From positions 1 to 64,000 of the forward strand of contig CANNBJ010000006.1 of NCBI GenBank assembly GCA_947502835.1: DNA of 64,000 bases. Reading direction: 5' to 3'. A model generated the notes under the pieces. The model was given only the letters and a program-made list of their open reading frames with translations. It searched no databases and was not told where the DNA came from. A program made the position numbers and the translations under genes. This document shows positions 1,882 to 6,403 of this stretch, one piece after another. The stretch is from Bdellovibrionales bacterium. Its GTDB lineage: Bacteria; Bdellovibrionota; UBA1018; CAIMNF01. The first letter of the stretch is position 1, and each line of letters begins with the position of its first letter.

Positions 1882-2091
1882 ATGAATAATAGCAGTGAAG
1901 ATAATTCACAAAGCAGTAAATCGTTCTTTGAAAATTTCAAATGGCTTACTACAAAAGAGGTTGCGGAATACTTAGGCACCACTCCGAAACAGATTCGGAA
2001 ATGGGCTTACCAAGGCAAGATCAAGGCATATAAGCTCTTGGGGAAAAGTCTTCGCTTCAAAAGCACCGAGATCAAGCTCCTCATTCTTTGA
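1882..2091 (+). CDS. Excisionase-family helix-turn-helix protein
   Basis: This 69-residue protein has a polar N-terminal tail of about 23 residues and then a MerR/excisionase-type winged helix. The sequence WLTTKEVAEYLG is the recognition-helix region, followed by IRKWAYQGKIKAYK and a basic wing, KSLRFK. A GGAGG ribosome-binding site precedes the ATG at 1882. It ends 12 bases before the integrase start, so the two genes are cotranscribed. In such pairs the small protein usually acts as recombination directionality factor or regulator of excision. Similar domains also occur in unrelated DNA-binding proteins, so the excision role is inferred from its neighbour. Confidence 0.8.
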   Translation: MNNSSEDNSQSSKSFFENFKWLTTKEVAEYLGTTPKQIRKWAYQGKIKAYKLLGKSLRFKSTEIKLLIL

Positions 2092-2103
2092 GGAGGAAAG
2101 GTC

Positions 2104-3252
2104 ATGGGCATTTACGCAGAAGAAAAGGAAGTCTCTCCTGGTGTTAAAAAGACGTTTTACACGGTTGTTGCTGAAGGCATCAATCGGTTCACAGGGAGAC
2201 GAATTCAAAAGAAAAGACGAGGTATTCCCTCCAAACCCAAAGCTGAAATGATTTACAAGCAGCTTTGGAACGCTTGTCGTGAAGAAAAGCCTGACGGTGT
2301 TGATGTTTCGAGATGGGGGTTGCTGCGCAATCAATATCTTGAAAGTCAAAAGAACTCAGTTCGCTCACTCGATAATCCAAATGGGATTAGTCTCCATCTG
2401 GTTGGAGTGAAAACTAGCCGACTTCGCCATACCGACAAATGGACGGATATGCACTTGGAGCTTATTTCTCCAAAGTTCGTGACCGACGAATTAGATACAA
2501 TGGAGCGGAATGGGATGAGTCGGTCGCTTGCGAATCAGGTTCTTAAGGAAGTGAAGTGCATGTTTGCCTTTGCTGTTCACTTAGGCGCAATCCAGTTCAA
2601 TCCCTTTCAGGGGATGAAAATGCGGAGAGAATCTAAGAAACGCAAAGAGGCACTCACTCACGCTGAAGTTGATATACTTCTGCAAGAAGCTAAGCTTCGC
2701 AGGCACAAGTATTATTACATCTGGCTTCTCACGGTGACATTGGGGTTGCGTCGAAGTGAACTCGACGGGCTCAAATGGATCGACATCGACTTTGACCAGC
2801 GTCTTGTCTATCTCCGAAGGCAGTTCATTCCCCGAGAGGGCGAAGTGGACCGCTTGAAGAACTTTCAAGACAGAACACCTGCCATCCCTGACTATGTGAT
2901 GCCTGAGTTAAGAAAAATGAAACTCGCATCACTTTCCGAGTACGTAATTGACGTAGATTGTCACGAATGGGACTCGGGGGCTCAAGCAAAAGTGTTGAGA
3001 CGCTTTTGCAAGGAGATTGGCATTAAGGAAGTAACCCATCACCAGCTACGAGCGACCCATATTACGCTTGCACTGATTGATGGCATTTCCCTAGGAATCG
3101 TCAAAGAAAACGTCGGACACGCGAAATTAAGCACTACAGATCAATATTTCCGTTCGGCTGGCATCTCGATGAGAGGTCAGACAGACGGGTTGAAAATACG
3201 AATCCCGCAGGATGACATGGCCGAAATTTTGCCGCTAAAAGGGTCAAAATGA
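2104..3252 (+). CDS. Tyrosine recombinase / phage-type integrase
   Basis: The 382-residue protein has the full catalytic set of the tyrosine recombinase family. Arg216 lies in GLRRSEL, the box HQLR gives His313 and Arg316, His339 lies in VGHAKLS and the nucleophile is Tyr348 in DQYF. The first ~65 residues look like a basic arm-binding domain and residues ~90-170 like the core-binding helical domain. A strong GGAGG site precedes the ATG. It is expected to catalyse integration and excision at an att site. The gene is the last of the AT-rich tract, as expected for the int-proximal end of an island, but no tRNA or matching att repeat abuts it. Confidence 0.92.
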   Translation: MGIYAEEKEVSPGVKKTFYTVVAEGINRFTGRRIQKKRRGIPSKPKAEMIYKQLWNACREEKPDGVDVSRWGLLRNQYLESQKNSVRSLDNPNGISLHLVGVKTSRLRHTDKWTDMHLELISPKFVTDELDTMERNGMSRSLANQVLKEVKCMFAFAVHLGAIQFNPFQGMKMRRESKKRKEALTHAEVDILLQEAKLRRHKYYYIWLLTVTLGLRRSELDGLKWIDIDFDQRLVYLRRQFIPREGEVDRLKNFQDRTPAIPDYVMPELRKMKLASLSEYVIDVDCHEWDSGAQAKVLRRFCKEIGIKEVTHHQLRATHITLALIDGISLGIVKENVGHAKLSTTDQYFRSAGISMRGQTDGLKIRIPQDDMAEILPLKGSK

Positions 3253-4771: not shown

Positions 4772-5032
4772 TCAGTTTTTAGGAGCTTCTTCGTGCCCGT
4801 GCGCGGCTTCCTCGTGATGCTCCTTGTGCTTGTGCTTCGTTTTGCACTTTTTGCAGCTTTTATGGTCTTTTCCGGTTTTGCATTTCGAGCACTCGCACTC
4901 GCCTTCGCAGTCGCTCTTTTTCTCCATTTTTGCCTCTTCTGCAGGAGCAGCGGATTCCTCGGCACGAATCACAGGGGAAAACACCATCCCGAGCGCCAAC
5001 GCATTCACCAAAACAAATTTCTTCATGGTCAT
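4772..5032 (-). CDS. Small secreted Cys/His-rich protein, probable metal binding
   Basis: Eighty-six residues from ATG at 5032, chosen for the GGAG site seven bases upstream. A Sec signal (MKKFVLV...VIRA) is followed by an acidic Ala/Glu spacer. The last half holds CEGECECSKC, SCKKC and a KHKHKEHH run, so about a third of the mature chain is Cys, His or Lys. This composition suggests binding of a soft metal (Cu, Zn or Cd) in the periplasm. No family name is assigned, and the role is inferred from composition only. It converges with the nitroreductase gene. Confidence 0.65.
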   Translation of the reverse strand: MTMKKFVLVNALALGMVFSPVIRAEESAAPAEEAKMEKKSDCEGECECSKCKTGKDHKSCKKCKTKHKHKEHHEEAAHGHEEAPKN

Positions 5033-5088
5033 AAGATTTCTCCTCATCCCCAGTGTAGCCATGGATCCACCCCCATCTCAAGACCTTC

Positions 5089-5128: not shown

Positions 5129-5205
5129 GCACCCGTAGCTCAATTGGATAGAGTATCTGACTTCGGATCAGAGGGTTTCAGGTTCAAGTCCTGACGGGTG
5201 CGCCA
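5129..5205 (+). tRNA. tRNA-Arg (anticodon TCG)
   Basis: A 77-base cloverleaf with CCA encoded. The acceptor arms are GCACCCG (5129-5135) and CGGGTGC (5195-5201), with G as discriminator base. The anticodon stem TCTGA/TCAGA encloses CTTCGGA, giving TCG for CGA/CGG codons. The T arm TCAGG/CCTGA encloses TTCAAGT. The last 21 bases of the tRNA are part of a 49-base direct repeat whose second copy lies at 5465-5513. Confidence 0.95.
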
Positions 5206-5233
5206 TCCTTCCTCGCTTCAAGGCATCCCGGAC
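5185..5233. repeat. att-like direct repeat, copy 1 (tRNA-Arg 3' end)
   Basis: Forty-nine bases starting in the T loop of tRNA-Arg and running 28 bases past the CCA. They are identical to 5465-5513 except for T5226 versus C5506. Such tRNA-end duplications are what tyrosine recombinases leave as attL/attR. Confidence 0.85.
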
Positions 5234-5370
5234 ATCGTCACCCTTCATTCGCTCTCCTGCAGCGTACCTCTGTGTACTCTTTAGTCGTGATCATTCGGTT
5301 TCCTTGTGCGGAATGCCTTGCTGCGGGAAGGTTCATTTACCCCGGAAGGACTTGAAGAGAGCAAGCCCGG

Positions 5371-5387
5371 GCAGACTCAATGTCTGC
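5371..5387. repeat. Hairpin in the inter-repeat spacer
   Basis: GCAGAC and GTCTGC pair around a five-base loop inside the 231-base segment between the two tRNA-end repeats. I see no credible gene in 5206-5497. Confidence 0.4.
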
Positions 5388-5421
5388 TTCTGAGCAGGAT
5401 GCGAGGAAAGGGTTTGCGAGT

Positions 5422-5465
5422 GGCAAGGCGCCAGACGCGTAGGATGCGCGGATGGACGCTTTGCC
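5422..5465. repeat. Long structured hairpin abutting repeat copy 2
   Basis: GGCAAGGCG (5422-5430) pairs with CGCTTTGCC (5457-5465) with one G-T wobble. Inside it CGCG (5436-5439) pairs with CGCG (5447-5450). The outer arm ends on the first base of repeat copy 2. It could be an element end, a structured RNA or a transcription terminator for the minus-strand regulator. Confidence 0.5.
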
Positions 5466-5513
5466 AAGTCCTGACGGGTGCGCCATCCTTCCTCGCTTCA
5501 AGGCACCCCGGAC
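5465..5513. repeat. att-like direct repeat, copy 2
   Basis: Second copy of the tRNA-Arg 3'-end repeat, offset by exactly 280 bases with one mismatch. It overlaps the last codons and stop of the minus-strand response-regulator gene ending at 5498. Confidence 0.85.
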
Positions 5514-6214
5514 GCCGGTTGCCCCGACTCTTCCCCGGAACGGAGACGGTAGCCAAGTCCCCTCACAGTCTCAATCCGTTCTCCGGTTTTCCCGAGTTTC
5601 TTCCGCAAGGAAAAGACGTGGGTGTCCACAGCCCGATCCACTACCGCTACACCCTCCCCTTGCACCTTCTGAATCAAATGGTCCCGACTCAAGGTGACAT
5701 CCGGATTGGACATCAGTTCGAAGAGCAACTTGAACTCGCTGGAAGTCAAATGGAGCCTCTCGGCATCCAAGTGCACATCGTAGGATGCCGGATTCAGGCT
5801 CAGCTTTCCGAGGTGAAGAGTGCCTCCGCCTCTGGGCGGGATTTTCAGATTCGATCGAACCACGGACAAAAGAGCCGCGCGATCAAAGGGTTTCGGGAGG
5901 AACAAAATCCGACCTGGCGTACGCCCCGTGAGAAGATCGGGGCCTTGACCGGGATCCGAAATCACCAGGACGAGGGGCTCGATTTCCGCAGACATTCGTG
6001 CAAGAGCCAGGGACACAAACCCCGCAAGACCCGTTTCCGGAACTTTGCTTCCGGTAATGAGAAGATCCACGTGCTTTTCAGGAATCCGCTCCAGAACTTC
6101 TTTCGCGGAACGAGCGGGAACCACGTCCAGCCCCCCACTGTCTCTCAGATGCACACAAATCAAGTCGAGCATCTCGGGGTCAGGGTCGAACACAAGTACC
6201 CGGGGCAGAATCAT
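5498..6214 (-). CDS. OmpR-type regulator with degenerate receiver
   Basis: Start at 6214 (MILPRVLVFD) is supported by an AAGGAG site eight bases upstream; the 238-residue product has a receiver domain (1-120) and a winged helix (about 130-228, with LTSSEFKLLFELM and RGLGYRLR). The receiver aligns well and keeps Lys in the LPKPF motif. However, the expected phospho-Asp in DLLITGSKVP is Gly55 and the acidic pair is reduced to D-P-D. It is therefore probably not controlled by ordinary phosphotransfer, and no kinase is adjacent. The last five or so residues and the stop codon are encoded by the tRNA-end repeat, so recombination may have replaced the original 3' end. It is divergent from tyrS. Confidence 0.8.
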   Translation of the reverse strand: MILPRVLVFDPDPEMLDLICVHLRDSGGLDVVPARSAKEVLERIPEKHVDLLITGSKVPETGLAGFVSLALARMSAEIEPLVLVISDPGQGPDLLTGRTPGRILFLPKPFDRAALLSVVRSNLKIPPRGGGTLHLGKLSLNPASYDVHLDAERLHLTSSEFKLLFELMSNPDVTLSRDHLIQKVQGEGVAVVDRAVDTHVFSLRKKLGKTGERIETVRGLGYRLRSGEESGQPASGVP

Positions 6215-6403
6215 CTCCACTGCTCCTTTGACCCAACCCAAACACTCATGAAATGCCCCTTCCGGGCTCTGTAGCAAGGCTCAAGCGTGCCTGATTCAAC
6301 CAAAAAGGGGGAAGCTTGGGAAGCTCAATCTCACAAAAGAATCACGCCGGCCTCCGGTCGAAGAGGGGTTGGTGGGAGCGCTTCCTTCGGGTACAGTGTG
6401 CGT

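Follow-up and report, generated by a model that had tools for sequence, protein, structure and literature searches.

A candidate RtT-like RNA unit behind a tRNA-Arg gene of a Bdellovibrionales bacterium and its counterparts behind tRNA and tmRNA genes of Bdellovibrionota

The tyrT operon of Escherichia coli has been known since 1991 to contain RtT RNA, which, to our knowledge, has no accepted role or origin. In the E. coli K-12 operon tyrT-tyrV, the tRNA 3' end (T, ...AATCCTTCCCCCACCACCA) is followed by a spacer, an inverted copy of the tRNA end (T', GGGGAAGGATGAGAAG), a core (K) and a direct copy of the tRNA end (T2, ATCCTTCCCCCACCACCA), in tandem repeats, with T' and T2 pairing in a closing helix (GGGGAAGGAT/ATCCTTCCCC). 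The Rfam family for RtT, RF00391, covers exactly T'-K-T2 in tyrT, in four copies, and the annotated rttR RNA has its 3' end exactly at the CCA of T2. RtT units with arms of their own isotype also lie behind lysT, lysW, lysY, lysZ, lysQ and lysV, and weaker, sub-threshold units, again with own-isotype arms, lie behind argV/argZ; nine other E. coli operons that were examined contain no RtT unit. A tandem GA motif has been reported for RtT (PMC7657543), and in A. pleuropneumoniae Northern blots revealed RtT RNAs next to tRNA-Asn and tRNA-Lys, with RtT RNAs being described as released during tRNA processing (PMC4986893).

The stretch of DNA analysed here, referred to as the window, comprises 64,000 nucleotides of a contig from a Bdellovibrionales bacterium. 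Behind its tRNA-Arg(TCG) gene the repeat finder detected a 49-base direct repeat at 5185-5233 and 5465-5513, with one mismatch (98% identity) and a spacing of exactly 280; the first base of copy 1 is C56 in the T loop, and the repeat extends 28 nt past CCA. A preliminary description of the locus had reported two copies of the tRNA-Arg 3' end with this spacing and mismatch, each extending from the T loop to beyond CCA, and a folded spacer of 231 bases between them, and all of this is confirmed. The repeat is far beyond chance, because the best other ungapped matches to the 49-mer within the window reach just 27/49 on the plus strand and 31/49 on the minus strand. The 231-base interior is without a gene and folds better than its shuffles (z -2.4; about -6.6 for T'-K-T2 alone), and within it the repeat finder located a third, inverted copy of the end of the tRNA T arm (arms 5183-5198 and 5341-5356, 88% complementary). 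An assembly artefact, a danger that the preliminary description had itself raised, is excluded because the orthologous tRNA-Arg(TCG) locus of another species of the same genus (G008) has the window's unit at 77% identity, with upstream genes identical in kind. The features of the unit, all on the plus strand, are as follows.

5129..5205, plus strand: tRNA-Arg(TCG), the host gene (ARAGORN; Rfam tRNA, 67 bits)
5185..5205, plus strand: T, the original copy of the tRNA 3' end from C56 to CCA, from which the direct repeat continues to 5233 (repeat finder; T55|C56 border in 38/48 units)
5207..5332, plus strand: H, an imperfect hairpin past CCA with its 5' arm within the direct repeat (fold)
5341..5356, plus strand: T', the inverted copy of the tRNA T-arm end, 5' strand of the closing helix P0, in which 5341-5353 pairs with 5466-5478 (inverted repeat; fold; P0 covariation)
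5357..5464, plus strand: K, the conserved structured core (covariance model R1, 159.8 bits; fold; compensatory changes in 44/46 pairs among 80 units)
5361-5368/5410-5417, plus strand: helix P1 of K (fold)
5370-5376/5382-5388, plus strand: helix P2 of K (fold)
5389-5396/5400-5407, plus strand: helix P3 of K, with the tandem-GA motif (fold)
5422-5441/5445-5465, plus strand: helix P4 of K (fold)
5465..5485, plus strand: T2, the direct copy of tRNA C56 to CCA, 3' strand of P0 and end of the unit (repeat finder; comparison of T2 with the tRNA)
5486..5513, plus strand: continuation of the direct repeat past CCA, a copy of the 5' arm of H (repeat finder; tandem units elsewhere; ORF and Pfam)

The plan of the unit is thus tRNA-T (C56 to CCA) - H - T' - K - T2, in which P1 of the core encloses P2 and P3 and is followed by the long P4. 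The last segment, 5486-5513, which overlaps the 3' end of a response-regulator gene at 5498-6277 on the minus strand (ORF, Pfam), probably represents either the duplication edge or the beginning of a second tandem unit that has since been lost. The H of many other units is simply a normal tRNA terminator, as also present at unoccupied loci. T' does not invert the whole 49-mer in every unit, as was first supposed: most units have a T' that spans the end of the T arm plus a variable stretch of the acceptor strand, and their H often corresponds to the tRNA's own terminator. On the other side of the tRNA gene, a small exported protein rich in Cys, Lys and His is encoded divergently at 4772-5062 on the minus strand, and this neighbour is kept in G000, G008, G005 and G010.

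The preliminary description had proposed to search the repeat and the spacer across the genome and its relatives, and this revealed a recurrent family of units. BLAST with the tRNA and the spacer as query identified the unit at tRNA-Arg(TCG) of G008 and pieces after tRNA-Arg(ACG), tRNA-Arg(CCG), tmRNA and elsewhere. The covariance model R1, which describes T'-K-T2 and was built from eight units, gave 59 matches in 16 of 58 relatives and 80 units in 31 of 369 Bdellovibrionota genomes, patchily distributed over many families. The window's genome has nine of them: at Arg(TCG), Gln, Arg(ACG) and Ser(CGA), two at Val(TAC), and three in tandem after tmRNA. Of the units, 64 closely follow a tRNA or tmRNA gene of the same orientation, and these hosts represent 30 isoacceptors. 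T2 is lost or degraded in some units, namely the Val units and copies without a tRNA; for the latter the upstream stretch was examined for a more distant tRNA and no matching one was found, the tRNA-Arg(TCT) that lies 13 kb away on one contig (G002:C217) adjoining a serine-recombinase-like gene and having a 3' end that matches the T2 of the unit poorly. Two nearly identical units of G012 (L028, L029) are likewise distant from all tRNA genes and have a degenerate T2. Phages and viral contigs gave no unit, and matches in plasmids were to the tRNA only. Six loci at tRNA-Cys, -Arg, -Ser and -Asp (L164, L021, L013, L162, L188 and L196) display the T-H-T'-K-T2 plan or part of it with a different core that is missed by R1, and the plan is therefore commoner than the 80 counted units. 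A further inverted copy of the tRNA-Arg(ACG) 3' end, flanked by a GAGTGAAACGAACGAGC-type motif, occurs downstream of the unit in L033 (at about 1950-2000), and motifs of the GAGTGAAACGAACGAGC type also occur in the loops of H within the window's genus. In G011 (L024, 600-1200) a core stops after GGCGACC at an apparent insertion sequence, and in G047, from another family, a right-hand piece of a unit that is the counterpart of this broken core adjoins a transposase-like ORF (L032, 1-600); the matching pieces could reflect mis-binning or transfer.

The arms of the units follow the host tRNA. T2 scores on average 17.2 against its own tRNA vs 6.5 against other isotypes, and T' scores 11.6 vs 6.9. 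Among units with a good T2, this copy starts exactly at T55|C56 in 38 of 48, whereas the duplication's far end lies anywhere between CCA and a point about 70 nt further on, the window's repeat ending 28 nt past CCA and including the first arm of H. Sequence comparison establishes that one plan recurs behind the tRNA and tmRNA genes of 30 isoacceptors, each time with arms that fit the host.

The closing helix and the core covary. In the alignment of 80 units 85% of cells are paired, vs 61% after shuffling and 34-39% after sliding, and 44 of 46 base pairs, P0 included, have changed on both sides; because the alignment was fitted to the model these counts are biased in its favor, although both controls, shuffled and slid, lie far away. 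A set of 57 units was analysed likewise. G-U pairs (137 observed, 269 expected) are spared more on the unit strand than A-C (48 observed, 205 expected), which indicates the fold of a sense-strand RNA. The tandem GA in P3 is present in 54 of 75 units. As judged from these alignments, the helix between the direct copy (T2) and the inverted copy (T') closes a conserved fold of the tRNA-sense RNA.

Comparison of orthologous loci demonstrates occupied and empty versions at Arg(TCG), Cys, Ser, Gln and Asp. The tRNA-Arg(TCG) gene with the small Cys-rich gene upstream, for which a search for both versions had been recommended, is occupied in G000 and G008 and empty in G005 and G010; tRNA-Cys is occupied in G001 and G009 only; tRNA-Ser(GCT) is followed by two units in G011 and by a stub in G000; and tRNA-Asp is occupied in G008 and followed by a T2 remnant in G000. 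The native terminator is identical in occupied and unoccupied Asp and Ser loci and H is, therefore, not always part of the incoming unit. In a tree of K, which is based on only 108 columns, the cores group both by genome (50 changes vs a shuffled mean of 66) and by isoacceptor (45 vs 54). Units at Val(TAC), tmRNA, Cys and Arg(TCG) appear to have been inherited. Groups with good support that mix isotypes comprise Trp/Lys/Arg (G041-G042) together with two G017 units, Ser/Arg (G000-G001-G011), Trp/Val (G079) and Met/Arg (G017). We infer that the unit has been gained and lost over evolution and that its core may reach new tRNA genes by some mechanism in which the target's 3' end is duplicated from a fixed point, T55|C56.

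Combining these data, we suggest that the feature in the window is one RtT-like tRNA-tail RNA unit of the form tRNA-T - H - T' - K - T2, which would act as a freed mimic of a tRNA end, and we assign this reading a probability of roughly 0.7. In this model, read-through transcripts of the tRNA gene would carry the unit and the T':T2 helix would imitate the acceptor/T-stem stack with its CCA end; because of this imitation, the enzymes of tRNA maturation might cut the unit RNA free, by analogy with the end of E. coli rttR at the CCA of T2. Its tandem-GA hairpins would bind tRNA-processing or ribosomal factors, for which the freed RNA would most likely serve as a decoy or partner, and each new copy would come with a duplication starting at T55|C56. 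Several observations count against the proposed explanation: a terminator of the Rho-independent type (H) stands between the tRNA and K in many units, so that K may be poorly transcribed; T2 is lost or degraded in some units; and RF00391 does not match the window's unit, nor R1 the tyrT operon of E. coli.

The preliminary description had interpreted the duplication as the footprint of attachment-site recombination or the scar of a deleted genomic island, with attL and attR remaining after the loss of the island. A direct repeat that begins in the T loop and passes CCA and an integrase 1.9 kb away are in agreement with such a history, but this integrase is found on the upstream side of the tRNA, opposite the repeat, 80 units share one conserved fold that contains an inverted third copy, and the orthologous locus of G008 has the window's unit. 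Moreover, dozens of tRNA and tmRNA genes are followed by identically built units, and unit-bearing relatives do not have homologues of the integrase at 2104 more often (6 of 16) than the others do (22 of 42). We consider a scar very improbable, and as a general account the island or attachment site was rejected on the basis of the recurrence, the inverted copy, the covariation and the missing link to an integrase. The same description had also considered a minimal non-autonomous unit mobilized in trans, perhaps by a recombinase like that at 2104. The variable occupancy of orthologous tRNA loci and the shift of cores between isotypes partly support a small non-autonomous unit in altered form, but no mobilizer was found and the distribution of integrase homologues speaks against the suggested recombinase. 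The gene at 2104 belongs to a pair at 1882-3252, an HTH_17 (excisionase-like) gene and then a tyrosine recombinase that is 64% identical to one in G002.

Alternatively, a tyrosine or serine recombinase that targets tRNA genes could act in trans on the unit as a DNA-level element, with T as the attachment core (T-loop sublocation) and T'-K-T2 perhaps recognized as a folded single strand in the way of integron attC sites. The left border fixed at T55|C56 (38/48), the gain and loss at orthologous loci, two units at tRNA-His in G122 that enclose an MNT/HEPN pair and a further gene, and an integrase and AbiE pair that adjoin a unit in G002 all argue for it; nevertheless, we regard it as unlikely given that no recombinase tracks the units (with Y1 transposases in 11 of 16 unit-bearing vs 30 of 42 other relatives, in addition to the integrase counts above), that attachment-site recombination between tRNAs does not explain the isotype-rewritten arms and the compensatory changes, and that the wobble asymmetry favors a sense-strand RNA. 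Still less probable, in our view, is a SINE-like retro-transposing RNA element whose 3' junction is set by site-specific nicking at T55|C56, with a variable second nick, and for which the target tRNA gene templates T' and T2 at insertion. Such an element would account for the fixed 3' junction and the variable other end (0 to about 70 nt past CCA) and for cores that change isotype while T2 is rewritten, its freshest case being tRNA-Arg(ACG) of G326, where T and its terminator are duplicated, but RVT_1 reverse transcriptases are found in only 5 of 16 unit-bearing vs 21 of 42 other relatives, no intermediate was seen, and gene conversion between repeats could imitate the hopping. A Y1 or reverse-transcriptase mobilizer was rejected for want of association across the 16 unit-bearing and 42 other relatives. 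A gene-bearing, autonomous version was rejected as well: just two loci have genes beside or between units, with unrelated cargo. In L121 (1686-4458; G122:C115) a nucleotidyltransferase/HEPN-type pair (PF01909/PF08780) and a beta-propeller-repeat gene lie between two tRNA-His units, the second without the 5' half of H, and in L123 (2297-9527; G002:C266) a tyrosine recombinase fragment, an AbiEi/AbiEii pair and two near-identical units lie on a contig without a tRNA. By eye, serine-recombinase-like genes directly adjoin tRNA-Arg genes in L009 (G010) and L145 (G002), and these tRNA-Arg genes may, therefore, also be real integration sites.

A more far-reaching, speculative and in our opinion doubtful extension is that RtT-like units from E. 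coli to Bdellovibrionota belong to a single class of RNA elements, selfish or domesticated, which place copies of themselves behind tRNA genes and at each insertion rebuild T' and T2 from the local tRNA 3' end with the junction fixed at T55|C56, as a bacterial counterpart of tRNA-linked SINEs.

The Bdellovibrionota units would give RtT a second set that shares its plan, spans a phylum and has arms following 30 different tRNA or tmRNA hosts, pointing to a general rule in which the core is constant and the arms are borrowed from the tRNA. In addition, 80 natural variants with strong covariation are now available for RtT-like RNAs, and both the release by tRNA-processing enzymes and the way in which a core arrives, with matching arms, behind a new tRNA have become testable. 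The locus also carries a caution, in that a duplicated tRNA 3' end need not mean the scar of an island.

Several known systems share single traits with the units. Genomic islands integrated at tRNA or tmRNA genes by tyrosine recombinases (T-loop sublocation) likewise have a direct repeat of the tRNA 3' end from the T loop, and occupied and empty versions of a locus are expected of them; in contrast, the units have neither internal cargo nor a recombinase, contain an inverted internal copy and a conserved RNA fold, and do not co-occur with homologues of the integrase at 2104. Integron attC-type sites also have a closing helix made of inverted copies and can end gene-bearing segments, as in L121, but the arms of the units are host-specific tRNA sequence, with a sense-strand wobble bias, and no integron integrase is known to be linked to them. 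REP/BIME and other intergenic palindromic repeats are equally short, dispersed, structured and non-coding, whereas the units are strictly tied to tRNA 3' ends, their arms are rewritten and Y1 transposases are absent from several unit-bearing genomes.

RtT RNA (rttR and the units of the lys and arg operons, together with Arrc20/21 of Pasteurellaceae, PMC4986893) is the closest known counterpart in design. RF00391, with its curated cut-off of 45 bits, has no match at E<=5 in the window's unit (L004) or in L034, L091 and L127, and across the 58 relatives nothing exceeds the cut-off, the best match and sole bridge being a sub-threshold one (28.2 bits, E=0.002) to a tRNA-Ser unit of G046 whose T2 matches at 20/21; conversely, R1 has no match at E<=1 in E. 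coli tyrT. Common descent of the cores is thus unproven and the plan could be convergent, and we file the window's unit as a variant of the RtT kind and not as a member of RF00391. The Bdellovibrionota core is larger, with P1 carrying P2 and P3 and with the long P4, T2 starts at C56 instead of about A58-A59, and the units occur at many more isotypes and at tmRNA, often behind a terminator hairpin. Nevertheless, by sequence the E. coli units at tRNA-Tyr, -Lys and -Arg share the plan of the Bdellovibrionota units. Both kinds lie 3' of a tRNA gene in the order tRNA-T - spacer - T' - K - T2, occur in tandem copies and end with CCA in a copy of the tRNA 3' end (5465-5485 in the window); both are closed by a T':T2 helix (P0, which covaries in the 80 units); and in both a core with a tandem-GA hairpin is common to different isotypes while T' and T2 follow the host tRNA.
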